Positions 13,423 to 43,790 of a stretch of 57,918 nt of DNA are shown piece after piece. The notes beneath the pieces are model-generated. The model made no database searches, was not told the DNA's origin, and saw only the letters and a program-made list of their open reading frames with translations. Both the position numbers and the translations under genes were made by a program. Location: IMG/VR virus record IMGVR_UViG_3300032799_000270, positions 1 to 57,918 of that record. The stretch is one strand, 5' to 3'. How positions within the stretch are numbered: the first letter of the stretch is position 1; each line of letters starts with the position of its first letter. Source of the stretch: a virus.

Positions 13423-13423
13423 G

Positions 13424-20978: not shown

Positions 20979-21962
20979 TCAATATCTCGCGTAGGTGACG
21001 AAGCCGCCACCCGTCACGGCCGCCGAGGTCGTCAGACACAGCGCATTGGCGACCGGCACGGTTACCAGCGAACGGCCTTCCAGGTCCAATGCCAAACTGA
21101 GGATGTTGGTGTAGGCCCCGGAGATAGCCGTCGTTCCTACGCCGCAGTTCGCCCCGGTTCCGTAGACCAAGGTAAGGTTCGTCGCGCCGGAATAGGACAG
21201 CGACAGATGACAGACCCGGATCTGGTCGCCTGCGGCCAGGGCGACGATTTCCAGTGTTCCAGCTCCCGCAATAGTGATGGCCGCTCGCTCCGTGCAGGCT
21301 GGCACTGGGGTATAGGCTGTGGCCGCCCCGTCGTAGTATTCCTGGCCTGCCGACAAGGGGTTGGCTAGTGTTCCGAACGGGTTGGTACCATCACTGAGCC
21401 GGCTGAACAGCGGGTTCGCCTGAGTTCCTTGCGCCGCCGCTCCGTCCGACAAGTAGACTGGCCAGCGGTTTACGGCGGTGTTTGCTGCGCCCTGATTGGC
21501 CGTTACGACCGCTCCCGGAGCAAAGCTCACAATGCTAAGGGATCGGTAGCCGTAAAAGGTCCCGCGCAACCTCCGTCCCGCTCCCGCCACCGCCCCAGTC
21601 AGCGTGATGCGCTGCCAGGGGTAGTAGCCGTACAGAATCGTGGAAGCCTGGGTCAAGGCCACATTCGGGTTCACACCTTCCAGTGTCGCTCCAGCGAACG
21701 CCACCCAAGCCGCCGGGGCGCCGTTGTTGTCCGCCGAGGATTGAAAGGTCAGCGTGAGGGCGGGGAAACCCGTGCTGGTGTAGGCCACGTACCAGCTCTT
21801 GCAGCCGATGAAGCGGTTGTCAAAACTCGCGCTTGAACCGTTGCCTGTGAAGTCGAAGAAGATCATGCAGTCCGGGATGACGTTCACCGGCGTGGTCAGC
21901 GGTTGCGCCCAGAGCGCAGAACCAAACAGCAGAACGAAGATCAGAACTCTAGCGCCGCGCAT
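20979..21962 (-). CDS. Secreted beta-rich protein
   Basis: 327 residues with a signal peptide (RGARVLIFVLLFGSALWAQ). A beta-sandwich-like N-terminal part (TLTFQSSADNNGAPAAWVAF) and a C-terminal part ending LALDLEGRSLVTVPVANALCLTTSAAVTGGGFVTYARY. The last strand resembles those ending other proteins in this module. Probably virion surface. Confidence 0.6.
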   Translation of the reverse strand: MRGARVLIFVLLFGSALWAQPLTTPVNVIPDCMIFFDFTGNGSSASFDNRFIGCKSWYVAYTSTGFPALTLTFQSSADNNGAPAAWVAFAGATLEGVNPNVALTQASTILYGYYPWQRITLTGAVAGAGRRLRGTFYGYRSLSIVSFAPGAVVTANQGAANTAVNRWPVYLSDGAAAQGTQANPLFSRLSDGTNPFGTLANPLSAGQEYYDGAATAYTPVPACTERAAITIAGAGTLEIVALAAGDQIRVCHLSLSYSGATNLTLVYGTGANCGVGTTAISGAYTNILSLALDLEGRSLVTVPVANALCLTTSAAVTGGGFVTYARY

Positions 21963-23769
21963 AAAGCAAAATCTCCAATCCGGCCACAATCTGAGTGGCC
22001 ATGGGCAGAATGCCTCCGCTCAGGTTTGGCACGTTGACGATGTACCGCAGGGTCTGCCCGCTCTGGATCTGAATGCCGCCGTCCAACCCGTATGCCTGCT
22101 GGCGGCTGCCGAGTCGTACTAGCACGTTGCCCAGGTGAATCGCGTAGGTCCGATTGACCTGGAGCCTCCACTGGATGTCCCCGTTGCCGTCCGCGAAGCC
22201 GGGACCCGTGTAATCATGGAACAGGGCGGTAATCAGCCCATCGTAGCCGGTGGGAACCCGGAAGTTGAAGATCTCCACGTCTCCCGAAATCGCCAGAGGG
22301 GTAGGGATGGCCCCAGTCGGCCGGCGCGAGATGAAATCCTTCGGCGCCCTCACGCTGTCGATGTCCACCCAGGTCTCCTGCTGGCAGCAGGTCCGCGCTC
22401 GCATAAACTGCTGCTCGCCCTTCAGTTGCTCCTGAAGGCAACGGTCGAACTGGTTCGGGACCAGAACCACCATGCGCCGGGAACCGGCCAGGGGGATGAC
22501 CGCGGGCGCCCCGGGAGGCCCGGCAATCGAAAACCAGTAGAAGCTACCGGCAACAGGAAAGCCTCCAATGAGCCCTGACATGCCCACGAGAAGCATCGGG
22601 TCCACCACATCCATGATGGGCGGCGAAAGGTAGTATATCGGCCCGCCTGGCGGATCGAAAGACGGGTTGGCCAATTCGTCGTGGAAGATCGTACCGGCGG
22701 CGATCGGACCGCCGCTGTAAGTTGCGAACAGGATGCGCGAGAGGGGTGTCAAACCATCGAGCGTCGTTTGCTCCACCCACCACAGATAGGTTTGCCCGCC
22801 CAGCGTGGAAGCGTGGATGCTCCCCGAGCGGGCCGTGCCCTCCGCATTCAGCCGCTGGGTCGGAACGGCTACTTGAGTGATGGCAGGATTCGGAGCCGTG
22901 TAAGGATCGACCACCAGCATCCCGCCGGTCCAGTACTGGTCCAGTTCGGAAGTTCCGTTTTCGACCGGGAACGGGAAGATCAGCATAGTTCCGACGCGGT
23001 CGGGAAAGCCGAAGGTCTGGTCCGAGATGAAGTTGTAGGTGTAGACCACCACTGGGGCGGTCATCACGCCGGCGGAACTGATCTGGCGGTAGTACACAAT
23101 CCGGGGCTTCTGGGGGCCGACTCGCGGCCGCTCGCTGTAGATCACATGCGCCGTGCCCGCCGGGTCCATGTAGATAGCTTCGAGGCAGCAGAGCTTGCTC
23201 TGCGGCAGAAGCACGTTGTCACTGACCACGATGGGGGCCAGAAAGCCCACGCCGTCGTGCCGGTAAAGCGTGATCTGCTGGCCTACAAAGAAGACGGGGG
23301 CTACTGTGGCAGCATAAATCCAATCCTCGGCCATCACGACATTACGATGGTAGCCGGCAATCTGCGGGGCCAGGGCTGCAAACGCATCGCAGTTGAACAA
23401 GAGCGGGCCGAGCGTGTTGGTAATGCAGTCGAAATCCCGCACGGCGGGGATATTCAAACCGGCAGTTTCGGGAGGCCCCCCAGGGTAGCAGATGCGGATT
23501 GTGTCTGCGTTAAGCCTGGCGGTTGCCACCAGCAAATTACCACCGCTGGGCATAGCCGCCACGTCCTGAGAAGCCCAGGTTAAACCGGCATCTGCGCTTC
23601 GGTACACTCGCAGATCAGCCGAGGCTTCGCCTGTTGCGATGAACCAACTGGCGTACCGCTCATTGCCTCTGATGTGAGGACCGGGATAGTTGCAGCTTTG
23701 CCCTCTGACATGGAACCAAGACGTGAAATCCACGCCAGCCAGAAACGGTCCTTGGGCAGTGTATGGCAT
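21949..23769 (-). CDS. Large propeller protein with shared C-terminal beta-domain
   Basis: 606 residues, no signal peptide. The N-terminal 450 residues look like a beta-propeller; YRSADAGLTWASQD is an Asp-box of the sialidase type. The last ~110 residues (FNFRVPTGYDGLITALFHD ... LRYIVNVPNL) clearly match the C-terminal half of the next gene, so a common virion-attachment domain is likely. The propeller may bind or cut host glycans. Starts right at the previous stop. Confidence 0.7.
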   Translation of the reverse strand: MPYTAQGPFLAGVDFTSWFHVRGQSCNYPGPHIRGNERYASWFIATGEASADLRVYRSADAGLTWASQDVAAMPSGGNLLVATARLNADTIRICYPGGPPETAGLNIPAVRDFDCITNTLGPLLFNCDAFAALAPQIAGYHRNVVMAEDWIYAATVAPVFFVGQQITLYRHDGVGFLAPIVVSDNVLLPQSKLCCLEAIYMDPAGTAHVIYSERPRVGPQKPRIVYYRQISSAGVMTAPVVVYTYNFISDQTFGFPDRVGTMLIFPFPVENGTSELDQYWTGGMLVVDPYTAPNPAITQVAVPTQRLNAEGTARSGSIHASTLGGQTYLWWVEQTTLDGLTPLSRILFATYSGGPIAAGTIFHDELANPSFDPPGGPIYYLSPPIMDVVDPMLLVGMSGLIGGFPVAGSFYWFSIAGPPGAPAVIPLAGSRRMVVLVPNQFDRCLQEQLKGEQQFMRARTCCQQETWVDIDSVRAPKDFISRRPTGAIPTPLAISGDVEIFNFRVPTGYDGLITALFHDYTGPGFADGNGDIQWRLQVNRTYAIHLGNVLVRLGSRQQAYGLDGGIQIQSGQTLRYIVNVPNLSGGILPMATQIVAGLEILLYARR

Positions 23770-24381
23770 TCAGGGCCTCGGGTAGAACCAGCCGTATATG
23801 GCGCACAGGATGCGCCCGTTCGGATCGAGCAAAGCGAAGTTGTTCACCCGTGCGATGTAGCGGATGGTCTCGTGGCTGTAGATCCGAATGCCTCCCCCGC
23901 TCAGCGAAGAGGGCGCCTGTAAATCACCCAGGCTGGTGAGGATCTGCCCGTAGTCGGGAGCATACCGCCGGGAAAGCTGGATGCGCCATTCGATGTCGCT
24001 TGAGCCTTCGACAAAACCAGCCCCAATGAAGCGGTTGACCATCCCCATAATCACGCCGTCGTACCCCATGGGAACCTGAAACCCCACAACTCCGGTATCG
24101 GTCGCCAAGGGGAAAACGGCAAGAGGCAGGGTGTTGATTTCCTGGTAGCGCCTGCCCTGTTGAGGCATCTTGACCCAGGGGGGTTCGTCGTCGGAATACT
24201 TCATCGACTCGGCCCTTCGGCACAGACCCGTAATCCCGCCACAGCATTGGATGTTGTACCAGATGGCCGTGTCCTGGGCCAGACAAGCATCGAAGTGGTT
24301 GCCCGGCTTGCCGTGGCACATCGGGAAACCGTGGCCCGCCGGGAAGGGCTGCGGAATTCGCAAGGTCCCGAGGTGTCTCAT
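23770..24381 (-). CDS. Virion protein sharing the attachment-like domain
   Basis: 203 residues. Residues ~86-203 (FQVPMGYDGVIMGMVNRF ... DIEWRIQLSRRY ... IRYIARVNNF) align with the end of the propeller protein. The N-terminal part has several Cys and His (CHGKPG, CCGGITGLCRR). Possibly the capsid-bound base to which the propeller homologue is related. ATGA start. Confidence 0.65.
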   Translation of the reverse strand: MRHLGTLRIPQPFPAGHGFPMCHGKPGNHFDACLAQDTAIWYNIQCCGGITGLCRRAESMKYSDDEPPWVKMPQQGRRYQEINTLPLAVFPLATDTGVVGFQVPMGYDGVIMGMVNRFIGAGFVEGSSDIEWRIQLSRRYAPDYGQILTSLGDLQAPSSLSGGGIRIYSHETIRYIARVNNFALLDPNGRILCAIYGWFYPRP

Positions 24382-24917
24382 TGCTTGTAGACCTCGCAGG
24401 GTTCGGCCGTAAAGATGATGAGCTGGGGCCGGATCGCCACGGCCGCCGTGTTAGCGATGTCCACCGCCAGCAGGCCCGGTTCCAAGATGAGTCTCGGCTG
24501 GGTCAGGAGATGCGGCAGCATGGCATTGCGTTGATCGGTGAGAGTAGCTTGCAGGCTGCTGAAGGCCGTCCCTTGCACGAAGTCGCTGAAGAACGGGATT
24601 CCGTTGCACGTGTCGGTGATCTGGAGCCACACGTCGTTGGCCGCGATCTGGGCGAACGGGGCTACCAGCCCGAAGCGGTTGCAGAGCAAGGCCCACACGT
24701 AGGACCGGGGCGTGACCCGAAGCTGATATTCCAAGGTCCGGTAGGCCGCGATGGTCGAGTTCTCGTCGTCGGGGATGACGTACCACTTGGGCCGGTACGT
24801 GTTGGCCCGCCTGAGCACGTCCAGGGCTCCTAAGGCGCTCGCCATGTAGTAGCCCGGACGATAGCGGATCGCCGGATTCAGCGTGAAGGCGTCGATGATG
24901 GAAGGCAGTCCGTTCAT
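24378..24917 (-). CDS. Putative capsid-module protein
   Basis: 179 residues, beta-rich. PRLILEPGLLAVDIANTA followed by a strand (QLIIFTAEPC) resembles the corresponding segment of the 24928-25794 protein (ERFITPAGLLAMDLYTVA then a strand). It is probably a single-domain member of the same family. AGGAGAAAACC precedes the ATG. Confidence 0.6.
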   Translation of the reverse strand: MNGLPSIIDAFTLNPAIRYRPGYYMASALGALDVLRRANTYRPKWYVIPDDENSTIAAYRTLEYQLRVTPRSYVWALLCNRFGLVAPFAQIAANDVWLQITDTCNGIPFFSDFVQGTAFSSLQATLTDQRNAMLPHLLTQPRLILEPGLLAVDIANTAAVAIRPQLIIFTAEPCEVYKQ

Positions 24918-24927
24918 GGTTTTCTCC

Positions 24928-25794
24928 TCACACCGTCTCTTGCCGGCGGATGCCGTGGAAACAGATCTGATAGGTGGACGGCAGCAACGGGGCTGTCAAC
25001 AGGCTGGTGACTTCAAAGCGGATGAACGTCTGGCGCCGGTAAAGCACCGAAGGAACCGGGAACACCGGGTTGTAGAAGTGGACCAGACCCGAGGCCGCGT
25101 CGTTCAGGTAAACGTCCAGTACCGGAGCGTTCGACAACTGCTTCCCCCGCTCATCGAAGAGTTGCAGCTTCACTTCAGAGTCCGGTACCGCATTGGTCGG
25201 CACTCCGGCCTGCGCCGTCCGAATGATCGTGATGCGCTGAAGCTCAAAGTCGCAACCTTCGGTTATCGGGAACGAGAACTTGCGGGGTTCGGCATCCGTG
25301 CCGGCCCAAGTCACGTTGAACGCCTGAACGTAACTGAACGGTCGCTCGATATACTTGTACTCGCTTTTCCCCGGATATGCGATCTCTCCCCCGGGAGGTT
25401 GCAGGTAGCGCCTCACCCCCTGAAAAGCGATCTGCGCAAAGAAAATGGTGACCATGCCCGCGACCCGGTTAGCTCTGGCCACCGTGTACAGATCCATGGC
25501 CAGCAAGCCGGCCGGCGTTATGAACCGCTCCGGGGCGATGGGGTAGGTTCGGGGCATGACGAAGCCGGCATTGGCCCCAGTCAAGGGAACCACGCTGGCG
25601 CGGAACTGAACCCGGGCCGCCAGTTTGTCGGCTCCCATGATCTGACGCAACGCGAAACCCGCGTCATTGTCGGCTACTCGGGTGTCGATGTTCGAGTAGC
25701 TCGCTCCATCGGTGAGCGCGTCCCCGTCGTAGACGTGCATGTAGGGCAGGTCGTAGTAGCCCGCAGGCGTTTGGTACTCGGCTAGTTGGAACAT
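24928..25794 (-). CDS. Tandem beta-domain protein, candidate double jelly-roll capsid protein
   Basis: 288 residues that appear to be two related beta-domains. The first ends IAFQGVRRY near residue 125 and the second ends ICFHGIRRQ at the C-terminus. Each has an xDFxxxR-like opening and a late P-rich strand (YPIAPERFITPAGLLAMDL; YNPVFPVPSVLYRRQTFIRFEV). The 25822-26250 gene is a one-domain version ending VLRGAKRYRL. Tandem related beta-barrels are the architecture of double jelly-roll capsid proteins in the PRD1-adenovirus lineage. The fold is my inference from repeats, not shown. Confidence 0.6.
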   Translation of the reverse strand: MFQLAEYQTPAGYYDLPYMHVYDGDALTDGASYSNIDTRVADNDAGFALRQIMGADKLAARVQFRASVVPLTGANAGFVMPRTYPIAPERFITPAGLLAMDLYTVARANRVAGMVTIFFAQIAFQGVRRYLQPPGGEIAYPGKSEYKYIERPFSYVQAFNVTWAGTDAEPRKFSFPITEGCDFELQRITIIRTAQAGVPTNAVPDSEVKLQLFDERGKQLSNAPVLDVYLNDAASGLVHFYNPVFPVPSVLYRRQTFIRFEVTSLLTAPLLPSTYQICFHGIRRQETV

Positions 25795-25821
25795 GGCAGC
25801 GTCCTTTCTCTGCCCGGCCGA

Positions 25822-26250
25822 CTAGCGCCGCGCCGCCGGCAACCGATACCGCTTGGCTCCGCGCAGAACGATCTGCACCGTGTTCGGAGCCGCCGACAGT
25901 TCGTTGATCTCGATGCCAATTCGGGAGCCTGCCGGCATGAGCAACTCGGGGAAGATCGGATACGGGTACGGAACCGTCCCCGACAGCAGGTTGGCCGACA
26001 GCATGAAGCCCGAACTCAGGTAGTAGCCTTGGCTGTCGTTGAACCGGAACGAAAACGCTCCGGTGGCCTGGCTGAGAATCACGGCCCGCCACACGAAGTC
26101 GCTATCGGTGTGGATCGGGACCGACTGATCTCTCAGGATCTGGGACGCCAGCAGGTTCACGTCGTACACGTAGTCGAAGCTGACATCCACGAAACCCAGT
26201 GGGAACTCGGGAACCAGTCCATTTTGAACCGGCGTTGCGTAGGGGTTCAT
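25822..26250 (-). CDS. Single beta-domain protein, capsid-family candidate
   Basis: 142 residues. SDFVWRAVILSQ, YPIFPELLMPAGSRIGIEI and TVQIVLRGAKRYRL match each half of the 24928-25794 protein in order and spacing. It is probably a penton, minor or second capsid protein. A strong AAAAGGAGGG site precedes the ATG, and two large hairpins lie upstream, separating it from the 26420-27061 gene. Confidence 0.65.
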   Translation of the reverse strand: MNPYATPVQNGLVPEFPLGFVDVSFDYVYDVNLLASQILRDQSVPIHTDSDFVWRAVILSQATGAFSFRFNDSQGYYLSSGFMLSANLLSGTVPYPYPIFPELLMPAGSRIGIEINELSAAPNTVQIVLRGAKRYRLPAARR

Positions 26251-26306
26251 CGGAACCCTCCTTTTCTCCCGCCCCGGTCATGCAGGCGGGTTTAGCCTCA
26301 AACGGA

Positions 26307-26386
26307 GGGCTGGCGGGGGCCCGGAGACCGGAGGCCCCCGTTTCCTGCCAGCCCCGATCCCGGCCCACCCCTGCCGATGGGCCGGG
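26307..26386 (-). terminator. Pair of long GC hairpins between capsid-module genes
   Basis: One stem has outer arms GGGCTGGC/GCCAGCCC and inner arms GGGGGCC/GGCCCCC (26307-26354). The second has 9-bp arms CCCGGCCCA/TGGGCCGGG (26359-26386). They follow the 26420-27061 gene. Such structures usually attenuate transcription or protect RNA 3' ends, raising the upstream product relative to downstream ones. Confidence 0.6.
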
Positions 26387-26419
26387 AAACTCGCTAGAGC
26401 AGATCCAGCCGGATCAGCT

Positions 26420-27061
26420 CTACATCACTGGACGAGCGTGCAGACCGTCGAGCAGGCACATCAGACAGAACGTGCCCGTCACGGTGTAAGGCCCGCCCGT
26501 CAACTGGGCGTAGAACTCGCCCTGGTTCTCGATCACGAGCGGGATCGCCAACTTGTGCATCGAGCTGCGATCCGCTACGCCGTTGGTGTAGGCCCCCAAG
26601 GCCGCAGCGTTGGCGTTGATGTTGACGAACCCGCCGCCGGCACTGTAGTACCAGATGGGGCCGCGGTTGTAGCACTTCTGGCCGAGGAAGAACTCGAAGC
26701 AGAAGTTGGTGAGCGCGTTGCCCACGATCGCCAACAGATCCGCGATCAGCATGTCCTCGTTCCAGTAGAGCCGAATACCCAGCACGGAGTGAGCCTCTGG
26801 AGCGGGGAGCCGCCTGGACTGCGTGAGGTTGGTTTGTCCCAGGGTCTTGCCCGAAGCTGGTCCTACGGCCGTGAACAGCGCCGTGTTGGCCTGCGTGATC
26901 GGAACCGCGCCCAGGAAAAAGGTGTCGTACAAGGGCTCGTTTTGAACATCCAACTTGCCCTGTACGTAGGTTTCACCCTGGAACGCATCCAGGATGGTCA
27001 TGTCCTGCGGGCTGAGAATCTGGCTCAGCGCCGCTCGTCTTGCCTGACTGATCTTTGCCAC
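26420..27061 (-). CDS. Candidate major virion protein
   Basis: 213 residues without a signal peptide or long helix. A helical N-terminal arm (MAKISQARRAALSQILSPQD) precedes a mixed fold with HKLAIPLVIENQGEFYAQL and GTFCLMCLLDGLHARP. Its own strong site (GGAGATTTGAA before GTG) and the hairpin pair after it suggest high expression, as for a major capsid protein. I cannot match it to HK97. Confidence 0.55.
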   Translation of the reverse strand: MAKISQARRAALSQILSPQDMTILDAFQGETYVQGKLDVQNEPLYDTFFLGAVPITQANTALFTAVGPASGKTLGQTNLTQSRRLPAPEAHSVLGIRLYWNEDMLIADLLAIVGNALTNFCFEFFLGQKCYNRGPIWYYSAGGGFVNINANAAALGAYTNGVADRSSMHKLAIPLVIENQGEFYAQLTGGPYTVTGTFCLMCLLDGLHARPVM

Positions 27062-27175: not shown

Positions 27176-28042
27176 TCAGTAGCCCCCGTAAGCCCTTGCC
27201 AATCCCGACATGGCCACTGGCGCTGCCACCGGCAGAGCCCTCAGCGGGTTCTCGGGGATCGACCAGTCCGCGTTCATGATCCCGGCCAGCCCGACCTGGC
27301 GGGCGATGGCGGGCAGGAAGGCGTTCAACGCCACCGAGCCGGTTTGGATGAGTCCTCCAAAAAGGACTGCATCTGCCACCGTCTGGTCCTTGACCACAGC
27401 CCGGGCGATCATCTGCGCGACGAACGCCGAAGCTCCGGTTGCGACAGTCCGCATCAGGTTGCCCTGCACGAACTGCCCCGGGATCAGGGTCGGGATGAAC
27501 TTGGCCGCAGCCATGCCGGCCATACCGGCGACAATGGCCTTGGCCATCCCCGCGCCCCGAAGCCCGAAAGCCCCCGGGTTGCGCCGCCGTGCGACACTGC
27601 GCCGGCGGTGTGAAGTCCTGCGATTGCGCCTGCGGGGAGCCGTCACCACTACACGGGTAGCGTTACGACGCCGCCGACGAGGATTGGCCGCTCGTGCGGT
27701 CTTCTTTCTGCGTCTCTTCTTCACTGCACTCCTCCTTGGATTGACGGCTCCCAGAGTGACCAACAGAGCCGGATTGAGTTGCCGTCTCTTGCGTGCCGGA
27801 GCTTTCCGGCGCCGAGCGCGGACCTTGCGGCGCGGGTTGACACTGGCCTTGGGGCTCACCCGACGACGGACGACTTTCGCCTTCCTTCGCCGATGAGCCT
27901 TCAGGGCCGCTTTCTGTCGCTTCGAGCCGAAAAACCTGATCTGCTTGGCGGTCATCCGGCGCCGGTGCCCAGGATTCTGCTTCCTCTTGCGACTCCGGCG
28001 CTGCGGATTGGCGACCAAGCGTCTCACCCTTGTGACGACCAC
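27176..28042 (-). CDS. Arg/Lys-rich protein with hydrophobic C-terminus
   Basis: 288 residues. The first ~170 are extremely basic with NPRRR-type repeats, and MTAKQIRFFGSKRQKAALK is a recognisable block of this family. The last ~120 are hydrophobic (AIVAGMAGMAAAKFIPTLIPG). It probably condenses or tethers DNA at a membrane or capsid inner face. It shares WSIPENP with the 34115-34591 protein, where 21 bp of DNA match. GTG 28042 has AAGGAGAG upstream. Confidence 0.65.
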   Translation of the reverse strand: MVVTRVRRLVANPQRRSRKRKQNPGHRRRMTAKQIRFFGSKRQKAALKAHRRRKAKVVRRRVSPKASVNPRRKVRARRRKAPARKRRQLNPALLVTLGAVNPRRSAVKKRRRKKTARAANPRRRRRNATRVVVTAPRRRNRRTSHRRRSVARRRNPGAFGLRGAGMAKAIVAGMAGMAAAKFIPTLIPGQFVQGNLMRTVATGASAFVAQMIARAVVKDQTVADAVLFGGLIQTGSVALNAFLPAIARQVGLAGIMNADWSIPENPLRALPVAAPVAMSGLARAYGGY

Positions 28043-28125
28043 TTTGCACTCTCCTTCCCCCTGAAACATCCAGGGGCTCGTCTTCACCCTGGTTGCCCAG
28101 GGGGAAATCTTTCTGGCCGAAAGCA

Positions 28126-28173
28126 AAAGGGGGCTGCCAGAGACGGATTACTCCATCCCCGACAGCCCCCTTT
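28126..28173. terminator. Bidirectional terminator-like hairpin
   Basis: Perfect 11-bp arms AAAGGGGGCTG and CAGCCCCCTTT around a 26-base loop, with U-runs on either strand, followed by a small CGAAAG-gctg-CTTTCG stem. It lies in the gap beside the inserted HNH gene and may limit read-through or process the long transcript. Confidence 0.6.
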
Positions 28174-28379
28174 CGAAAGGCTGCTTTCGGCTTCCTCACC
28201 CCCCGGCCGCGAACCGGAGGGCTCATCAGAACGCTATGAAAAGATCGTGCCTTTCAACTCGAAAAGGCGTATACTGCTACTGGGGATAGGCCACGGGAAT
28301 CTAGACCCGTCGGCTGACTTCCGGTCGCTCCGAAGCCGGGTCCCCATTTATCAAATTCGGAGGCCACGCGGAGGTGGCC

Positions 28380-29060
28380 ATGTACGACAAAATCTGTCCT
28401 TGGTGTTCTGCCTCGTTCCGAACAAACCGTAGGTGGAGGATATACTGCTCCAAACGGTGTTCGCTGGTGCATCGGAACACCAAACCGAGAGAACAGGTCT
28501 TCGTAACGAAACAGTGTCCGGAGTGCCAAAAAACGTTCGAATCCAGAAGATGTCTGCGCCTCACCTTCTGCTGCCGAAAGTGTGCAAGGGATTATCACGG
28601 TTTCCACAACCGTCTGCCCGTTGCAATTCGTCTCTATAGAAGAATCCAGAAAACTGAAATCGGCTGTTGGAACTTCATGGGATACAGAGATCAAGCCGGG
28701 TACGGTCGCATCGTTTGTGGAGGAAAGTTGAGACCCGCACATCGCGTTTCCTACGAACTCCAGTACGGTGTTATCCCCCAAGGCTTGGAGATTAACCATC
28801 TCTGCAAAAATAGAGCTTGCGTGAACCCTGAGCATTTGGAAGCCGTGACTCATCGGGAAAACGTCCAGTATTCCAAGGGAACTACCGCAACACGTTGGGG
28901 TTGTGGTCATGAAAGAACCGAAGCGAACACGATGCGAAGAAGAACCGGAATCGAGCAATGCCGAATGTGTCTTCGCCGCCAAGCTAGGCAGTCCTACTGG
29001 AGACATGCAGAAAAACGCCGCCAAGCAGTTAAGTCCCACTACCATAGCGTCAATCAATAA
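28380..29060 (+). CDS. HNH homing endonuclease
   Basis: 226 residues on the strand opposite the surrounding operon. N-terminal zinc fingers (CPWCSASFRTNRRWRIYCSKRC; CPECQKTFESRRCLRLTFCCRKC) are followed by an HNH core (GCWNFMGYRDQAGYGRI, AHRVSYELQYG, GLEINHLCKNRACVNPEHLEAVTHREN) typical of free-standing homing endonucleases. It would cut an allele lacking the gene and promote its own copying. Start ATG 28380 has GGAGG upstream. Its end overlaps the 29050 gene by 11 bp. An independent invader. Confidence 0.85.
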   Translation: MYDKICPWCSASFRTNRRWRIYCSKRCSLVHRNTKPREQVFVTKQCPECQKTFESRRCLRLTFCCRKCARDYHGFHNRLPVAIRLYRRIQKTEIGCWNFMGYRDQAGYGRIVCGGKLRPAHRVSYELQYGVIPQGLEINHLCKNRACVNPEHLEAVTHRENVQYSKGTTATRWGCGHERTEANTMRRRTGIEQCRMCLRRQARQSYWRHAEKRRQAVKSHYHSVNQ

Positions 29061-31332
29061 TGCCTGGATCTTCCACACGGTATGCGCCTCCAGAGATGCT
29101 CAACAGCTTGTTGATCGGGTCATAAAGGAGGAACGGTTGACGCCCTGATTCCTCCCCAAGTTGGTGTTCATAGTCCGTTAACTTGAAGTTCTGAAACCCC
29201 TTTTCTGTTTGATAAACGAGCGAGGTCAACACCCCGATCGCCATGGAATCCTTCAGCCACTTCTCGCCGTCCATCTTCAAGGCTTTCAAATCCAACTCCT
29301 GATCGCCGCCTTCGATGTACAACTGCTGGCCGTCTTCCGAACTGCACAGGTTGGGAGCGCCCTTTGTGAAGCTGATTGTGGCCTCCAGGTTGGTCAGCGT
29401 GGCGACCTTCAATTCGACCAGGAGCCCCAACTGAGTGAGCCACTCGTGCTCCCGCTTCTCGGTGACGATCTCCAGGGTTTCGCCTGGAGGCTTCCCGTGG
29501 AAGTCTTCGTAGAGCGCAGCGGCATCGGATTCAGGATTACTTCGCCCTCTACCCACCAAACTATTCCAGGAGTTTACAGCATTGTCCGTTTCAGGAAACC
29601 TCACCTTTTTTTCCAAACGGGAATGGAGTGTCCCACGACGTGCTGGCTGGTTCGGGTCTGAGCTGATAGTCCCGCCAGGATGCAGCGCGGGGCTGGGGAC
29701 CTCCACGTAGAGAGGCTTGCCAAAAGGTTGGTCCCCAGGACCGTATGCTCTGCCGCGAATCACCGCTACCGGCAAACCATAACTGCTTGCACTGTGCTTC
29801 GTGGTCAGCCGAACTTCAACAGCACGCCCTTTGGCGTCGTAGGTTATGACCCTTTCGTCTCTTGGCGGATTCCCGGCACGTCGAGCCTTGGCCGCAATTC
29901 GCTGAAACCGCTTCGTGCCGTACTTGCGCCTCCCGATCCACGCCGCCAATGCACCAGGGTCTTCCACGCCGGGCCGGGCCGCAAGTTTCGACTCCAGGGC
30001 AGCGAAGCGTTCGCCAGAGCCGAGATCGTCCTCAGGATTCCGCCGCCGCATGAGCAGGCCCTGGCCGGTCACGGTAGAGATATGACCAATGAGCTTCTTG
30101 TAATTGGGAACGCCGTAGGCGCTCTTGATCCGGTAGATGTTGCCGGTCCCCCGGTCGAGCATAAATGCGCCGCTAGTGCCTTCATCCAGCATGGCCCACC
30201 GCTGCTTGTACTTCACGGTATGCGGATAGTACGTATCGTAGTTGAGGTTCGGGGCATCATGCTCGAATCTGGCACGACCGGCCTCATGCCAGTCCTTCAA
30301 AAGCACGTCCACCTTGGACTTCCACTCTTCAGGCCAATCGGGAGCAGGATTCTCATACGCCTCGCACAGGTCCTGCGCCGTCATGGCCGCCGCCTGCTCG
30401 TCAGGGGTGGCCTCCTGAAACTCTGGCCGGGTGGTCATGCCCAAGTGCTCATCGTAGGAGGTAATGGCGTCGGCTACGTCGGGGGCGGGGTTCTGTCTCC
30501 GAATCTGCCGGATGAAACTGTCAAGCAGATTCTGCGCCTCGGCCTCCGAAAGCCCCGAAACGTCGTAGACCTCTCCCGACCCGCCGCCCATGAACACCTT
30601 TACCCCATGGGAGGACATCAGCCGGTAAACTTTACGGGCTTGGTCAATTGAGGTCCCTGCAGATGGGCTGTTCACGAAGGTTCGGAAAAGTTGTTTGTGC
30701 GGTGGGTCCACGTCCGCCCATCCGACGATGTGAATAGGTCCGAGGTCTTGTGGATAAAAACCGGGGGTGGGGTTTACCTTCGCCCTTGCCTCGTCGTTCC
30801 ATCCACGCATGAAGTCGCCCCAGGCGTATCCCCACTCTTCACGATCCGCAATACTCGGTGTGAGATTGACTGTGCCGTGTTGGGCAGCAGCATAACGAAG
30901 TTTGGAGCGACCGGCGCGGTAGGCATCGCTTTGATGGGCAGGTTGCGGGTTCGGCCTTGTCCCCGGCACAATCGTCCTGAACTCCTTGTACTTCCCCGGC
31001 GACTGCTGCCGGAACCGCCAGAAGGTGGCGCCCTCATCCTTGCCGCTGCCCGTGAATCCATGCTCCTGAAGCCAGGTCTTCGCGGCGTCTCCAGTCCACT
31101 TCAGCTTGTCGAAGATCACGGACTGAACTTCGGAGATCCGGCGACCGGCTTTCCGTGCGATGCCCAGCACGAACTTGATGCCGCTGTCGGGATTCGCCAT
31201 AGCTCCGATCAGCAACTCCACGTCGGGGACGGGAGCGGCGAGCAGTGCTCCGACCTTGGCCAAGGTTGAAGGCCGATGTTTGGCGGCCCGGTGGATGGCA
31301 TGATGCTTACGGGCTGTGGCGTGTCGTGCCAT
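29050..31332 (-). CDS. Large multidomain protein with NP-linked modules
   Basis: 760 residues, the largest protein here. A basic N-terminus (MARHATARKHHAIHRAAKHR) precedes domains separated by eight NP-containing linkers (ANPDSG, RPNPQP, VNPTPG, QNPAPD, ENPAPD, RNPEDD, GNPPRD, SNPESD). No membrane segment and no catalytic motif. The NP linkers recur in neighbouring genes and might be cleavage or docking sites. It is probably an internal virion protein. Starts in a TAATG overlap. Confidence 0.55.
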   Translation of the reverse strand: MARHATARKHHAIHRAAKHRPSTLAKVGALLAAPVPDVELLIGAMANPDSGIKFVLGIARKAGRRISEVQSVIFDKLKWTGDAAKTWLQEHGFTGSGKDEGATFWRFRQQSPGKYKEFRTIVPGTRPNPQPAHQSDAYRAGRSKLRYAAAQHGTVNLTPSIADREEWGYAWGDFMRGWNDEARAKVNPTPGFYPQDLGPIHIVGWADVDPPHKQLFRTFVNSPSAGTSIDQARKVYRLMSSHGVKVFMGGGSGEVYDVSGLSEAEAQNLLDSFIRQIRRQNPAPDVADAITSYDEHLGMTTRPEFQEATPDEQAAAMTAQDLCEAYENPAPDWPEEWKSKVDVLLKDWHEAGRARFEHDAPNLNYDTYYPHTVKYKQRWAMLDEGTSGAFMLDRGTGNIYRIKSAYGVPNYKKLIGHISTVTGQGLLMRRRNPEDDLGSGERFAALESKLAARPGVEDPGALAAWIGRRKYGTKRFQRIAAKARRAGNPPRDERVITYDAKGRAVEVRLTTKHSASSYGLPVAVIRGRAYGPGDQPFGKPLYVEVPSPALHPGGTISSDPNQPARRGTLHSRLEKKVRFPETDNAVNSWNSLVGRGRSNPESDAAALYEDFHGKPPGETLEIVTEKREHEWLTQLGLLVELKVATLTNLEATISFTKGAPNLCSSEDGQQLYIEGGDQELDLKALKMDGEKWLKDSMAIGVLTSLVYQTEKGFQNFKLTDYEHQLGEESGRQPFLLYDPINKLLSISGGAYRVEDPGIID

Positions 31333-31637
31333 TAGCGTTTCCTGGTCATCATGAACAGCGTGGCGGCTCCCACTCCGGCAATCACCAGCCACATGGCGGG
31401 CGCCCGGCAGTAGACCGTATCGCCGGCCGATTGCAGATCCTCGTACCACTTGCAAGGAGCTTCGACCTGGCGGGCGTAGTCCCGTTCGATATAGACCGTG
31501 GGCGACGGCTGGTAAGCGGGGTACATCATGGGGAATGGAGGCCCCGGTGGTGGACCCGGCGGTGGCGGCCACGGTGGAGGTGGTGGAGGCGGGGGTGGTC
31601 CGTTGCCGATCCCCAGAAGTGTTGCATTGGTCATCAT
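31332..31637 (-). CDS. Proline-rich tail-anchored protein
   Basis: 101 residues. After a short start comes a long polyproline tract, then YIERDYARQVEAPCKWYED and a C-terminal membrane helix (MWLVIAGVGAATLFMMTRKR). AGGAGGACAGC lies before the ATG, which overlaps the upstream stop (TGATG). First of the run of C-anchored small proteins. Confidence 0.6.
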   Translation of the reverse strand: MMTNATLLGIGNGPPPPPPPPPWPPPPGPPPGPPFPMMYPAYQPSPTVYIERDYARQVEAPCKWYEDLQSAGDTVYCRAPAMWLVIAGVGAATLFMMTRKR

Positions 31638-32818
31638 CAAGCTGTCCTCCTGTAAGCTCCGGTATGCCCGTAGTGCCGGCGCCTCAATCTCCAAATCTCC
31701 CTGGAAAACCGGGAGCGGTCATCGGCGGAAGTCGCATGAACCATCTCGACGGCCGCCGGAACCGTCATGGCATCCGATTCGCCTTTCATGGTCAGCAGAG
31801 CCAGAGCGTACTGCCGGTAGCTTTCCGCTCCCCTGGCTGCGGGGTTGTATTGCCGGGTGAGACGCCCATATCCAGAAGCCCGCAGAGTGTTGGCGTGCAG
31901 CATGTTGCAACTTCGGCAAGTCCAGATCAGATTTTCAGGCCGGTCGTTCTCTTCGTGCCCATCGACGTGTCCGATCTGAACCTGCTGATTAGTTCCGCAG
32001 AAGGCGCAGAGTTTCGGCCCGATGGGAGGATTGGCGTTGGCCCGGTATCGGTAGGCTCGGTCGGTGAGGTGGAGTTGCGGATTCCTCCGCTGCGCATCCA
32101 CAAACCGCTTGGCGTCCTTCAGGCTATCAAACCGACTGTCGGGGTCAATCGACACCTGATACCCGTCCCCAACCCTGAAAATCCTAGTGCCCTTGTAGCC
32201 GAAACTGGGGGCCTGGGCTGTTCTGTTGTCACCCTCCTCGACCCCACGCCAGAACTCGCGCTCCAGCCTGCTGCGGATCTGCGGAGACCGCTTGTCGAGC
32301 TTGGCCTTGACTAGCCACGGCTCAAATCCTGAGGTGTCCCCGATCCGTGCTCCGGCTTGGCGTGCCGCTACCATGGCCTCGGAGAAGGTGGGACCGGCGG
32401 GGTTTTGCTCTGCCATGCTTCGGGCTACGGACTCCAATATTTCATCCCTCAGGTTTGGATTCGTCAAAGGTTCGGCAACAGCAGCCGGATGGTAAACGGC
32501 ATAGTCCAGACTCCCGATTCCGTGTTTAGGGCCAGACCAACCGTGCTGTAGCCACCATTGCAACGCGAATGCTCGTGGCACAATCAACTGTGGGACGCCG
32601 GGCATCCGAATTTGTTCCTTGAGCACAACCTCTGTAAGTCTTGAATGCCTTGGGTTCTGCTCGGCGCAGTAGTAATGCACCTTCCCGCCCTGCTCGCTGA
32701 ACTTCCAGGTCTGGCCCGGAAGAATCGGCTTGTCGCACACCTTGCAACGCGAGGCCAGGGCGTAGAACTTCTTCAGGCTGGGTGCCCCGACTGCCCGTCT
32801 TGTGTCCTGTGCCGCCAT
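31637..32818 (-). CDS. HNH-domain protein with N-terminal zinc site
   Basis: 393 residues. An N-terminal LIM-like site (CKVCDKPILPGQTWKF ... VHYYC) and a C-terminal HNH-like core (LCAFCGTNQQVQIGHVDGHEENDRPENLIWTCRSCN). The middle has NP linkers as in its neighbours. The nuclease core looks complete, so DNA cutting is possible, for instance in genome processing or exclusion of rivals. Operon position suggests a virion-linked role. Start has GGAGGCAAG upstream. Confidence 0.65.
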   Translation of the reverse strand: MAAQDTRRAVGAPSLKKFYALASRCKVCDKPILPGQTWKFSEQGGKVHYYCAEQNPRHSRLTEVVLKEQIRMPGVPQLIVPRAFALQWWLQHGWSGPKHGIGSLDYAVYHPAAVAEPLTNPNLRDEILESVARSMAEQNPAGPTFSEAMVAARQAGARIGDTSGFEPWLVKAKLDKRSPQIRSRLEREFWRGVEEGDNRTAQAPSFGYKGTRIFRVGDGYQVSIDPDSRFDSLKDAKRFVDAQRRNPQLHLTDRAYRYRANANPPIGPKLCAFCGTNQQVQIGHVDGHEENDRPENLIWTCRSCNMLHANTLRASGYGRLTRQYNPAARGAESYRQYALALLTMKGESDAMTVPAAVEMVHATSADDRSRFSREIWRLRRRHYGHTGAYRRTA

Positions 32819-32822
32819 ACTG

Positions 32823-33311
32823 CTACTTGTTCTTGCCTCCGGCAAAGACCAACAGTGCAATCACTGCCGCCCCGCCCAGCAACAGCACAGGCGGAAAGCT
32901 GGACAGAAAAGCCCGTGCCTGCACTAAAGGATTGCTCGACCGAGCTACCCCTGCCGGTACGTGACACTGGATGTCTTCCCAGCCTATTACTCCGTCAACC
33001 AAGCGCGCCCGGTAGAATGGCGAGTCTGTCCCAATATCCGAAACCCCGAGTACGCAGCAAGTCCCCAACCGTTTCTGCTCTTCTGCCGTTGCTTTGCGGT
33101 CGATATACGTGATTCGGGCCATGCGCGCTTGGTACTCAGCTTCCTCTCCGGCGCTGTACCCCCCCGTGCCGATCACATCTGCCATCAGTTGCGCTGCCGG
33201 TCCATCTGCGTACACGTAATCATCGCATGCGCCCGAGGCGCGTTCGGAGAAGTTGTAACCTACCCCCACTAATCCTTCTAGCCCGAGCATGTGCTGATTT
33301 ATGTGTGCCAT
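32823..33311 (-). CDS. Tail-anchored membrane protein
   Basis: 162 residues. A soluble N-terminal domain with several Cys (GACDDYVYADG, GTCCVLGVSD), an SNPLVQA linker and a C-terminal helix (PPVLLLGGAAVIALLVFAGGKNK). A 13-bp motif (TTTAGAGTCGAAA) lies just before the ATG. Unknown function; possible virion-membrane protein. Confidence 0.6.
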   Translation of the reverse strand: MAHINQHMLGLEGLVGVGYNFSERASGACDDYVYADGPAAQLMADVIGTGGYSAGEEAEYQARMARITYIDRKATAEEQKRLGTCCVLGVSDIGTDSPFYRARLVDGVIGWEDIQCHVPAGVARSSNPLVQARAFLSSFPPVLLLGGAAVIALLVFAGGKNK

Positions 33312-33320
33312 GTTTCGACT

Positions 33321-33488
33321 CTAAACTCCACCGATCCGGTACGGCTGGAACTGGACAACTGGCCCCTCTGCCTCAACCGGCATGTAGGACTCGGGAACAC
33401 CCTTATTGACCGGCTCGCCTTTGTCCCGCAGCAGCAGCCAAGCCGCCAGAGCCACCACCCCGAGCATCACTACATCCTTCGTTTCCAT
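33321..33488 (-). CDS. Small N-anchored membrane protein
   Basis: 55 residues: METKDVVMLGVVALAAWLLL then a charged stretch and a short tail ending QPYRIGGV. It starts in a TGATG overlap. Probably a minor membrane component. Confidence 0.55.
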   Translation of the reverse strand: METKDVVMLGVVALAAWLLLRDKGEPVNKGVPESYMPVEAEGPVVQFQPYRIGGV

Positions 33489-33685
33489 CAGCGTTTCACC
33501 ATCAGCTCCCACCGCGAAGGCAACCGAACCCCTACGGCGAACGCCACCGCCTTGACCTCCCGCACAATCACCGGAGTGGAACTGAGCATGCTGGCGGTCT
33601 TACGCGAGGGCGTCACGAAACCCTGCACGCCGGGAATCCGGTACTTGAAACCGCCGCGGTCCTCGATTGCCTCCACCGTTATCAT
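33488..33685 (-). CDS. Small soluble protein
   Basis: 65 residues (MITVEAIEDRGGFKYRIPGV ... VIVREVKAVAFAVGVRLPSRWELMVKR), beta-rich, coupled at both ends. No family recognised. Confidence 0.55.
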   Translation of the reverse strand: MITVEAIEDRGGFKYRIPGVQGFVTPSRKTASMLSSTPVIVREVKAVAFAVGVRLPSRWELMVKR

Positions 33686-33906
33686 TGGTTCCTCAGCAAA
33701 AGCAGCGCCGCGACTCCGACGCCAGCGACCAGCCACCAGTTGAACTGGCAGACCGGATACACCGTGCCGATGTCGCAACCCGAAAACGGCCCGGTGTCGC
33801 TCGTGCATTTGATCGGTCGTTCGCGCTCCCACAAAGCACAGGGAGCCAGTTTCGGTATCGGAACTTCATCGGTCATCAGCATCGCCGTTCCAAGTGAAGT
33901 CAGCAT
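33682..33906 (-). CDS. Tail-anchored membrane protein
   Basis: 74 residues: N-terminal hydrophobic start, a Cys-containing loop (KCTSDTGPFSGCDIGTVYPVC) and a C-terminal helix (WWLVAGVGVAALLLLRNQ). ATGA and TGATG couplings. Loop disulfides fit an external or periplasmic side. Confidence 0.6.
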   Translation of the reverse strand: MLTSLGTAMLMTDEVPIPKLAPCALWERERPIKCTSDTGPFSGCDIGTVYPVCQFNWWLVAGVGVAALLLLRNQ

Positions 33907-34118
33907 CACGCCTCCCACGGGCTCCGCATGGGCCGAAACTCGACCGCCTGATTCATCGCCTCTTGCCTCTCGGCACACCCGCCGCACTGCCGAATGTGGA
34001 GGGCGTCGGTCAACTGCTTGATGAGATCCCCACCGCGTACCCGTTCCTGAAGGAATGGGACTGGGATGCTCAAGAGTTGACGAACGCCCCCCTCTTCGGT
34101 GTTTGGGAAAAAGCTCAT
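33906..34118 (-). CDS. Small soluble protein with a CxxC motif
   Basis: 70 residues (LLSIPVPFLQERVRGGDLI, HIRQCGGCAERQEAMNQ). Coupled at both ends by overlaps. CGGC could bind metal. No family recognised. Confidence 0.5.
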   Translation of the reverse strand: MSFFPNTEEGGVRQLLSIPVPFLQERVRGGDLIKQLTDALHIRQCGGCAERQEAMNQAVEFRPMRSPWEA

Positions 34119-34591
34119 ACGAACTTCTGATACCTCCTCGGCCTTGCGGCCCTGATACTGGCCACTTTGGCTTTGTACTGAGCGCGGGCGGCTGCAATCT
34201 CTGATCTACGTTGACTTCCGCCGCCACCCGTGAACAGCACCAGACCGACGATGCCCACCCCTACTACGGCCCAGGTCTTCCAGTCGCCCATTGACGAGGT
34301 GACGGATTTCAGCACGTCATCAACCGCCCCGTCCAAACCACACAACCCGACTTCGCAACGACGAGCAGGGGGGCCGCAACCGAGACCAACCGGCCCCAGG
34401 GGATTTTCCTCAACCGCTTCGGCCAGTTTCTGTTTGGCCAGGATTTCAAGCACAATCGGGTTGGGAGCCCAGGTCGAGATGCCGCTCACGATGGCGCTCA
34501 ACCCGAAGGCCCGGCGGATCGGGTTCTCGGGGATCGACCACAGGGCCGGCAGGAAGACCCCGATGCCGGGAGCGAGATGGGATGTCAGCAT
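34115..34591 (-). CDS. Membrane protein with SIPENP motif
   Basis: 158 residues. An N-terminal hydrophobic region with WSIPENPIRRAFGLSAIV, a Cys loop (CGPPARRCEVGLCG), a membrane helix (TWAVVGVGIVGLVLFTGGGG) and a basic tail (SIRAARPRRYQKF). SIPENP and its DNA match the end of the basic 27176-28042 protein, so the two may interact or derive from each other. AAGAGGTGACT precedes the ATG. Confidence 0.6.
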   Translation of the reverse strand: MLTSHLAPGIGVFLPALWSIPENPIRRAFGLSAIVSGISTWAPNPIVLEILAKQKLAEAVEENPLGPVGLGCGPPARRCEVGLCGLDGAVDDVLKSVTSSMGDWKTWAVVGVGIVGLVLFTGGGGSQRRSEIAAARAQYKAKVASIRAARPRRYQKFV

Positions 34592-34593
34592 AG

Positions 34594-35013
34594 TCACCTC
34601 TTCATCAAAAACAGCACTACAAGCACTGCCCCGCCGATGAGGAGAAGCGGCCCGTAGTCCTTCAGCACTTTCTCGGCTTCTTCGGCCGTCAAGGGAAGCT
34701 TCCCTTCGGGCGCCCACTCGCCACTGGCTTGTTGCTCGGCCAGATACTTGCGCCAAGCCTCCTGAGTTCGTTCCAGGCTCGACTGCGACAAATCCACCAC
34801 CTCATGCCCGGTGTAGATGGCTTCGCCTTCGGCAGTCATAGCCGGAGTCCCTGGAGGTTCAAACGGGATGGCTTTGGGTATCTCTCCGTATTGGTGTTCC
34901 TCGTAGACCTCGGCGGCGAACTCCCCGCAGAACATCCTGGCCAACCAGGAGCCTTCAGGAAAAATGCAGCCCTTCAAGTTCGCCAACCCGGGATGGAGGA
35001 TCAGATGCGCCAT
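34594..35013 (-). CDS. Tail-anchored membrane protein
   Basis: 139 residues. A soluble domain with CIFPEGSWLARMFCGEF and a helical region, ending in a membrane helix (YGPLLLIGGAVLVVLFLMKR). Starts one base after the previous stop. Unknown; fits the anchored-protein series. Confidence 0.6.
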   Translation of the reverse strand: MAHLILHPGLANLKGCIFPEGSWLARMFCGEFAAEVYEEHQYGEIPKAIPFEPPGTPAMTAEGEAIYTGHEVVDLSQSSLERTQEAWRKYLAEQQASGEWAPEGKLPLTAEEAEKVLKDYGPLLLIGGAVLVVLFLMKR

Positions 35014-35014
35014 G

Positions 35015-35242
35015 TCAGTCCCTTATCACCAGTAGAGCCACCACTCCAAACGCCCCCAAGATCCACCATTGCAAGTTGCTGGCCTTCGGCTTCTCTGCCG
35101 TGCCGGTTGCGGAGAACGAAGGCACTCGGCAAATCTCTTCACAGTTCCCCGCCCCAGTCTCCAGGCAACCGTAATAGCACGAGGCTTCAAGCGTAAAAAA
35201 CTCGCTCACCGTCTGCTGCCCCAGACCGAGGCTAACGTGCAT
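35015..35242 (-). CDS. Tail-anchored Cys-rich membrane protein
   Basis: 75 residues. CYYGCLETGAGNCEEIC suggests two disulfides, followed by a linker and a C-terminal helix (WWILGAFGVVALLVIRD). Overlaps the upstream gene by 11 bp. Confidence 0.6.
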   Translation of the reverse strand: MHVSLGLGQQTVSEFFTLEASCYYGCLETGAGNCEEICRVPSFSATGTAEKPKASNLQWWILGAFGVVALLVIRD

Positions 35243-35480
35243 GCTGCCCTCCCAGTCTCACCCGCCCGTAGCCGTCCATGTGGAACCGGAGCTTTCCGAA
35301 GTTGCTCCGTAAGGCCCGGTCGATCTCCTTCTTGTGCGTCCCGTAGATGCCCCGTAGCAACAGGTTGGGAGAACCTTCGACCAGACGCTCCAGAACGCGG
35401 ATCGCCAGGATGTCCACCCGTCCGGTCGGGTCGGGCCCGCGCCGGCGAACAGGAACCGAATTGGTCTTGGCCTTGGCCAT
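35232..35480 (-). CDS. Small basic protein
   Basis: 82 residues. MAKAKTNSVPVRRRGPDPTG, then VDILAIRVLERLVEGSPNLLLRG and KKEIDRALRSNFGKLRFHMDG. Helical and basic with no membrane segment. Start in a TAATG overlap with the 35480-35659 gene. May bind nucleic acid. Confidence 0.55.
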   Translation of the reverse strand: MAKAKTNSVPVRRRGPDPTGRVDILAIRVLERLVEGSPNLLLRGIYGTHKKEIDRALRSNFGKLRFHMDGYGRVRLGGQHAR

Positions 35481-35659
35481 TACCGCTTCCTTGCTTTTGC
35501 CTTTCTGCTGGTCTTCTTCTTTCTGCCGCCGAAGATCAAAGCTCCAGCGGCCACCGCAGCGGCAAGCCACCACCAGGCCGGAAACGAACACGGAACTTCG
35601 GCTTCAGCCAGGGCGCTCTCGTAGCAGCCCTCGGGAATCTGCCAAGCGTAGCAGTCCAT
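35480..35659 (-). CDS. 59-residue tail-anchored membrane protein
   Basis: MDCYAWQIPEGCYES, then a helix (PAWWWLAAAVAAGALIFGG) and a very basic end (RKKKTSRKAKARKR). The stop overlaps the next ATG (TAATG) and the start follows the previous stop closely. Short enough to be missed by automatic annotation. Confidence 0.6.
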   Translation of the reverse strand: MDCYAWQIPEGCYESALAEAEVPCSFPAWWWLAAAVAAGALIFGGRKKKTSRKAKARKR

Positions 35660-35668
35660 GATCGGCTC

Positions 35669-38485: not shown

Positions 38486-38488
38486 CGT

Positions 38489-38800: not shown

Positions 38801-38802
38801 GT

Positions 38803-39273: not shown

Positions 39274-39276
39274 CGT

Positions 39277-42943: not shown

Positions 42944-42953
42944 AAAGCTGCTC

Positions 42954-43762: not shown

Positions 43763-43790
43763 TCGATTCTCCTCTTCATGAAAACTGCTC

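Follow-up and report, generated by a model that had tools for sequence, protein, structure and literature searches.

The jelly-roll locus and its genome

This study concerns a run of genes at 24378-27061 of the viral record IMGVR_UViG_3300032799_000270, a stretch of 57,918 nucleotides that is referred to here as the window and was designated G000 among the genomes compared. An earlier note, made from the sequence alone, had described the run as related beta-domain proteins, one of them a tandem duplicate, and had proposed it as a candidate double-jelly-roll (DJR) capsid. The four open reading frames (ORFs) that it listed are all present on the minus strand and encode proteins of 179, 288, 142 and 213 amino acids (aa), which we name by their first coordinates 24378, 24928, 25822 and 26420. 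The sequence ends that it quoted (IAFQGVRRY, ICFHGIRRQ and VLRGAKRYRL) are also found, as is PGLLAVDI beside AGLLAMDL. Because the two ends of the window carry an exact terminal repeat of 123 bp, the genome is most likely a circle of 57,795 bp.

One close relative, IMGVR_UViG_2124908035_000001 (55,349 bp), is 68-80 % identical to the window in ORFs 23770, 24378, 24928, 25822 and 26420. About 30 more contigs, mostly of 40-63 kb, were gathered, at first with the transglutaminase-like gene 39612 as query and later with 25822 and 26420 alignments. Whole-genome comparison covered 20 of these roughly 30 contigs, which are metagenomic records, some of them incomplete; the two smallest, G024 and G025 (about 24 kb), are possibly fragments. 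Nine of the 20 genomes look circular because they have exact terminal repeats (97-127 bp), and these records measure 46.9-61.6 kb. Every genome encodes 26420, the basic protein 27176 and the jelly-roll cluster, always in the order basic protein, candidate major capsid protein (MCP) 26420, jelly-roll, with a jelly-roll ORF after the MCP candidate; in 18 the transglutaminase gene lies upstream. The families of 29050 and the lytic transglycosylase are present in 19 genomes, and those of the transglutaminase-like protein, 40436, 37133, 24378 and 34115 in 18 each. Family clustering with BLAST placed the jelly-roll, 23770 and 21949 families in one cluster, an effect that we think is caused by a mobile insert, and this clustering was not used for any claim of homology. 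The group is absent from PHROGs and is undescribed; no description of it was found in titles and abstract openings of the open-licence literature on tailless, jelly-roll and Acidobacteriota or soil viruses.

The tandem and single jelly-rolls as one family

The central observation of the earlier note, that 24928 holds two copies of one domain of which 25822 is a single copy, was borne out by profile-profile comparison. The N half of 24928 matches the C half at 97.7 % over 115 columns, and 25822 matches the N half at 99.0 % (E 2.5e-18, 114 columns) and the C half at 98.1 % (116 columns). The relation suggested for 24378 was likewise recovered, at 94 % with 25822 over 74 columns (hhalign). With profiles limited to the window and a close relative, the internal repeat is barely detectable, hhalign aligning the two halves over 13 columns at 4 %. 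A non-iterated test agrees with the deeper comparison: a profile built from 25 single-domain relatives only, with 560 shuffled halves as control (best E 1.0), was run against 14 proteins of the 24928 type and matches 11 of the N halves at E ≤ 2e-4 and 4 of the C halves at E ≤ 0.01. Both halves of the window protein score comparatively weakly (0.068 and 0.28). When the same profile was run over all window ORFs, 24928-25794 was the sole match below E 1 outside the profile's own family (E 0.0037). An N-half profile finds the C halves at E < 0.01 in 7 of 14 (best shuffled control 9.5), and a C-half profile finds the N halves in 4 of 14 (best shuffled control 2.8). At the level of sequence profiles the repeat is real and far above chance, and the tandem and single jelly-rolls are one family. 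Protein 26420 has no sequence relation to this family in profile-profile comparison (all ≤ 0.2 %).

The tandem arrangement varies among relatives. Both barrels share one ORF in 17 of the 20 records and occupy two successive ORFs in G013. G024 and G025 lack the tandem protein but encode 26420, the basic protein, a single jelly-roll and a protein of the 23770 type. In these distant relatives (L172-L175), the single jelly-roll protein begins with a Cys-rich, zinc-finger-like stretch. G003 encodes two tandem proteins (684 and 697 aa), each with a long insert (~400 aa) in the N barrel, and large inserts are found in the 24928-type proteins of several relatives.

Predicted fold of the tandem protein

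The AlphaFold2 (AF2) monomer model of 24928-25794, made from 21 sequences (pLDDT 86.7, pTM 0.86), contains two all-beta domains that are predicted to be tandem jelly-rolls. Model and profile comparison together support the layout of a tandem duplicate plus a single-barrel partner. The comparison with PRD1 P3 and PM2 P2 that the earlier note had called for gave a divided result. In Foldseek searches against the PDB, mostly DJR capsid chains lead (PBCV-1, PM2 P2 with E 3.2e-5, PR772, PRD1 P3), and the individual barrels match PM2 P2, PRD1 P3 and PBCV-1 chains one by one (E 1.8e-5 to 1e-4). The two-barrel unit fails to superpose on the PBCV-1, PM2, PR772 and PRD1 chains, with a query-length TM score (TMq) of 0.21-0.28 and a root-mean-square deviation (rmsd) of 16-20 Å. 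A slower structural aligner paired the C barrel with satellite panicum mosaic virus (Z 7.7), SH1 (7.1) and the STIV turret (7.1), and its listed DJR matches cover single barrels. Its matches of the N barrel to nucleoplasmin (Z 7.2), a fold that is pentameric, were not used as support.

These results bear on whether 24928 could itself be a DJR major capsid protein, with 26420 as an accessory protein. The best Foldseek matches to the whole model in the PDB are DJR capsid proteins, and matches among viral models (BFVD) are of the same kind (Gluconobacter phage GC1 and nucleocytoplasmic large DNA viruses, NCLDV). At 288 aa the protein is close to PM2 P2 (269 aa), and the window shares with PRD1, PM2 and FLiP tandem jelly-rolls in one protein, a single-barrel partner and a lytic transglycosylase gene. 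A first place in the Foldseek list was nevertheless rejected as proof of a DJR, given that the pair does not superpose jointly. In addition, the tandem protein is not universal in the group and carries large inserts in several members, a HerA ATPase was not found in the window, and the genome is three times larger: 57,795 bp against the about 7-18 kb given for prokaryotic DJR viruses in PMC5894146, which agrees with the reservation about size already voiced in the earlier note. We therefore consider a DJR capsid improbable. The predicted jelly-roll fold of 24928 stands, and the proposed PRD1-lineage capsid does not follow from it, because in the model each barrel finds its match separately and the rigid pair does not. 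Protein 26420 fits the MCP role better.

The inserts point to another role for the tandem protein. The N part of 21949 matches the insert of the 684-aa tandem jelly-roll protein of G003 (25 % over 415 aa, E 7e-8); it contains one Asp-box, SADAGLTW, and no Pfam family was found in 21949. An insert shared by these two proteins points to the particle surface, as would be expected of a receptor-binding domain that switches carriers. Since the tandem protein can be missing or doubled, 24928 is unlikely to be the main brick of a shell. The second repeated domain of the locus, the 23770 type, gave 49 ORF matches among the loci, a count in which some contigs are represented more than once.

A candidate major capsid protein

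The AF2 model of 26420 (28 sequences; pLDDT 83.0, pTM 0.79) finds its best structural matches in SPV1 (6oj0_A, Z 8.1 over 130 residues at 3.3 Å), HHIV-2 (7.9), SH1 (7.7) and HCIV-1 (7.4), with P23-77 VP17 lower (6.6). Alignments to the leading chains begin at residues 14-23 and take in part of the N-terminal helices. Because all four leaders are viral upright single-jelly-roll (SJR) proteins and the N-terminal helices are aligned, the match exceeds a merely common arrangement, and we regard it as suggestive. On its model, its presence in every genome compared and its constant gene order, 26420 is more likely than 24928 to fill the major-capsid role. Deeper profiles of 26420 gave no PHROG or credible PDB sequence match, and no PHROG family matched any sequence in the 26420 or 24928 alignment. 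Single-sequence and two-row searches with 24378, 24928, 25822, 26420 and 21949 yielded no PHROG or Pfam match beyond chance level. None of the phage records searched encodes 26420, and 23770 had one chance-level match among them.

Tailed-virus hallmarks and packaging

The earlier note would have yielded to a clear HK97 capsid elsewhere in the window, and none was found. The families PF05065 (HK97 capsid), PF04860 (portal) and PF03237 (one terminase family) occur in none of the 20 genomes, window included, although very diverged members could escape this search; controls were positive in 4, 4 and 6 of 14, respectively. Among the PHROG matches listed for window ORFs (25 of 82 families) there is no head, portal, terminase or tape-measure family. 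The longest ORF encodes 840 aa, so that the 57.8-kb genome has no tape-measure-sized gene of the usual kind. Each of these results argues against a tailed virus with head and packaging genes diverged beyond recognition, in which the jelly-rolls would belong to tail fibres, the baseplate or decoration proteins. Such a virus would be in keeping with the jelly-roll-like domains held by tail fibres (9rkv_O, Z 7.2) and with the many core genes that have no assigned family, yet we judge it very improbable. A non-tailed virion is the best reading, because jelly-roll folds are predicted and no HK97 capsid, portal or terminase family was found.

PF01935 (HerA) was not found in the window, other FtsK families not having been searched genome-wide, and no plausible window gene has a Walker-A motif; the packaging motor of the window, if any, is therefore unrecognisable. 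HerA as the packaging ATPase of the whole group was considered and rejected, as 5 of 20 genomes encode it. The replication genes differ among members, and the other P-loop proteins examined are DnaB, UvrD, VapE-like, DEAD and AAA_24 proteins.

Integrated relatives in Terriglobia

Among 399 genomes of Terriglobia (Acidobacteriota), the class to which a Bryobacterales genome belongs, 9 matched the 26420 profile; a phylum-wide draw of 396 genomes gave one match, in a genome already present in the class draw. Other module genes lie beside the match in eight of the nine Terriglobia genomes, and G191 has only the MCP-type match in the stretch fetched. The G184 module sits in a contig of 4.86 Mb together with a primase-polymerase gene, and integrase genes flank it on either side; it is an integrated relative in a Terriglobia chromosome. 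The jelly-rolls of the proviruses are single, and the tandem profile is the best label for no provirus ORF; G047 has two longer jelly-roll ORFs of 348 and 295 aa. The IS1-family transposase of the window is closest to Terriglobia copies (71 %). Module relatives were found in none of eight genomes with an IS1-type transposase, and a genome-contig scan with a two-row 26420 profile gave 97 stretches and no relative, where the later, fuller profile succeeded.

A single-jelly-roll shell as the probable explanation

We consider it probable that the locus encodes the shell of a tailless icosahedral Acidobacteriota virus, probably with an internal membrane, in which 26420 is the MCP, 25822 occupies the vertices and 24928 forms a spike base. 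Starting from directly established homologies, gene order, predicted folds, the terminal repeat, the integrated acidobacterial relative and the failure to recognise tailed-virus families or HerA in the window, we infer capsid, penton, spike, DNA-binding and membrane roles, hexamer and pentamer assembly, and motor-free packaging. Protein 26420, with one upright jelly-roll and an N-terminal helix, would form hexameric capsomers that build the facets, as SPV1 VP4 does, and 25822, with one jelly-roll, would act as the penton that closes the five-fold vertices. Duplication and fusion of a vertex-type domain would have produced 24928 as the base of a vertex spike, with 24928 and 21949 as alternative carriers of a receptor-binding head and 24378 and 23770 as minor vertex or spike proteins. 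The circular genome would be compacted by the basic protein 27176-28126, small one-helix proteins would fasten the shell to the membrane, and packaging would proceed without a virus-coded motor.

The closest known parallel is SPV1 (Portogloboviridae), which gives the best structural match of 26420. Its virion is built of VP4 hexamers and VP10 pentamers, both single-jelly-roll proteins, around circular dsDNA wrapped by VP1 (PMC8459092); here there are two predicted single-barrel proteins, 26420 and 25822, and a very basic core protein (25 % K+R). That protein and the C-terminal hydrophobic proteins are hints consistent with a Portogloboviridae-type membrane and nucleoprotein core. PMC8812541 reports no packaging ATPase for SPV1, and none is recognisable in the window either. 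In contrast, SPV1 infects Saccharolobus (archaea) and has a 20-kb genome (PMC8459092), whereas the circular records here measure 47-62 kb, have many extra genes and integrated relatives in Acidobacteriota, and no sequence similarity to SPV1 was found. Against the circular dsDNA of about 20 kb and archaeal host that define Portogloboviridae, the window genome is circular, but of 57.8 kb and with Terriglobia relatives.

The single-jelly-roll model of 26420 also matches upright SJR capsid chains of SH1, HHIV-2, HCIV-1 and P23-77 (Z 7.9-6.6, in a range where unrelated folds reach 7.2), members of Helvetiavirae, for whose kind the realm Singelaviria was created in 2025 (upright single-jelly-roll viruses; PMC12714852). 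Pentons, spikes and an internal membrane occur in Helvetiavirae and are suspected here. Helvetiavirae use two different SJR major capsid proteins together with an FtsK/HerA ATPase (PMC8812541), and genomes of Helvetiavirae/Singelaviria span 16-30 kb (PMC12642351, PMC12643093); here the second SJR protein besides 26420 is 25822, and HerA occurs in 5 of 20 records and not in the window. The group resembles portoglobo- and helvetiaviruses, and membership in either is unproven.

The same comparison raises the alternative of a two-protein lattice as in HCIV-1, SH1 and P23-77, in which 26420 would correspond to VP7 and the tandem protein (or 25822) to the tall VP4 in mixed facet capsomers. HCIV-1 VP4 consists of two stacked jelly-rolls and pairs with the single-barrel VP7, according to PMC6414509; SH1 and HHIV-2 chains are matched by both the 24928 and 26420 models, and the genes adjoin. 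The absence of the tandem protein from G024 and G025 speaks against such a lattice, as does the large insert of G003, which would stand on every capsomer, and 26420 lacks a sequence relation to the jelly-roll family. We regard this lattice as rather unlikely.

Several observations weigh against a 26420-built shell in a tailless Acidobacteriota virus. The group is known from genes alone and its folds are predicted, and no sequence match from PDB profile searches or PHROG scans ties the shell proteins to a known capsid. A Z score of about 8 is the level that the aligner calls typical for unmatched folds, unrelated folds appear for 26420 from Z 7.2 down (the tail fibre 9rkv_O and peptidylglycine (copper) monooxygenases), and Foldseek against BFVD gave weak, mixed matches (best E 3e-4) that were not used as support. 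Conservation does not single out 26420: identity to G002 and G003 is 34-41 % for 26420 versus 44-50 % for 25822, and a case for 26420 as the MCP because most conserved was dropped, 25822 being at least as conserved. In size the genome exceeds that of SPV1 about threefold. A HerA-type ATPase (PF01935) is encoded by five relatives (G007, G017, G019, G023 and G025) and may be a motor in part of the group, its role being packaging or replication. Finally, relatives and the IS1-family transposase are what point to an Acidobacteriota host for the window genome, and the genomes surveyed for proviruses are a sample, with one match among 396 in the phylum-wide draw.

Wider implications

More tentatively, and with less confidence than in the shell itself, we raise the possibility that the group is a separate high-ranking bacterial lineage: circular Acidobacteriota viruses of 45-60 kb with an SPV1-like shell, mostly motor-free, with a basic, membrane-linked protein condensing the genome in place of a pump, and an independent duplication and fusion of the vertex jelly-roll. 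If so, the tandem vertex protein, fused independently of the origin of DJR capsids, would be a natural replica of a disputed step. PMC8812541 proposes that SPV1 is near an ancestral state that preceded the doubling of the capsid gene and the gain of a packaging ATPase, and a shell of the SPV1 kind in large, temperate viruses of bacteria would put this proposal to the test. It would also raise the question of how a ~58-kb genome enters a shell with no recognisable motor, and soil Acidobacteriota would gain a tailless virus group missed by family libraries. Given the integrated copies, it should be possible to induce a host culture.

Other genes of the module and side observations

Features of the window discussed in the text, with strand and the evidence for each assignment
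Coordinates	Strand	Feature	Evidence
12925-13948	-	Lysis or entry enzymes: lytic transglycosylase with C-terminal hydrophobic segment (12925), M15-type peptidase (13424)	
21949-23769	-	606 aa; Asp-box-bearing N part (putative propeller) and 23770-type domain; suggested receptor-binding protein	Homology to G003 insert
23770-24381	-	203 aa; second domain type, also at C-terminus of 21949-23769	99.6 % profile match, 135 columns
24378-24917	-	179 aa; related protein sharing second half of jelly-roll domain	hhalign 94 % with 25822; family in 18/20 genomes
24928-25794	-	288 aa; tandem jelly-roll, barrels about 13-131 and 148-286; suggested vertex or spike-base protein	AF2, fold searches, inserts of relatives
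25822-26250	-	142 aa; single jelly-roll; suggested penton-type (five-fold) capsid protein	Same domain as both 24928 halves
26420-27061	-	213 aa; candidate MCP, two N-terminal helices and one predicted jelly-roll	AF2, structural matches, 20/20 genomes beside basic protein
27176-28126	-	Lys/Arg-rich (25 % K+R), NP-RRR repeats, hydrophobic C-terminal part	20/20 genomes
29050-31572	-	Core protein with conserved C-terminal domain	19/20 genomes; cluster includes 31637-32860
31332-39759	-	Small proteins with one C-terminal hydrophobic segment: 31332, 32823, 33682, 34115, 34594, 36312, 37133, 39277	
39612-40286	-	Transglutaminase-fold protein, C-terminal hydrophobic segment; possible maturation protease	
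40436-42301	+	621 aa; divergent core gene, left border of virion module	18/20 genomes

The basic protein is suggested to be a genome-condensing or membrane-linking virion protein, and the run of small one-segment proteins at 31332-39759 provides candidate virion membrane proteins. Of the 18 gene candidates at 31.3-40.3 kb, 9 (39612 included) end in a hydrophobic segment, versus 5 of 75 elsewhere; these fractions are approximate because the candidates were hand-picked from the ORFs. For 39612, the families PF04473 and PF01841 appear once each in a pooled Pfam scan that does not name the member protein; Cys118, His153 and Asp168 are invariant in four relatives, and the family is present in 18 of 21 further records. 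The pooled scan also contains SLT and Peptidase_M15_3, and the 12925 family occurs in 19 of 20 genomes. For 40436, neither Pfam nor PHROG gave a family below E 0.1.

The dipeptide Asn-Pro is enriched at 27.1-40.3 kb (38 observed versus 7.6 expected; 35 versus 26.9 in the rest of the genome). Family-wide, observed and expected counts are 130 versus 19.0 for the basic protein, 117 versus 19.6 for 29050 and 33 versus 7.3 for 34115, and the enrichment is absent in 26420 and the jelly-rolls. From this sequence pattern, Asn-Pro possibly marks cleavage sites for the core transglutaminase-fold protein. Inside the virion cluster, the opposite-strand gene 28374-29060 (+), 65 % identical in G001, is probably an HNH endonuclease and perhaps a homing-type insertion, judging by inspection and by the HNH families of the pooled scan.

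Elsewhere in the window, ORFs 57552-57917/3-434 and 3057-3599 are near-copy genes with a PEP-CTERM sorting signal (PF07589), an unusual virus cargo. ORF 54039-55007 contains 24-bp tandem repeats at 54434-54824 that encode repeated LTTETPDK. Near-repeats are scattered at 42944-42987, 43057-43154 and 43777-43854, beside a ParB-like gene (43873-44745), and are possible partition or regulatory sites.

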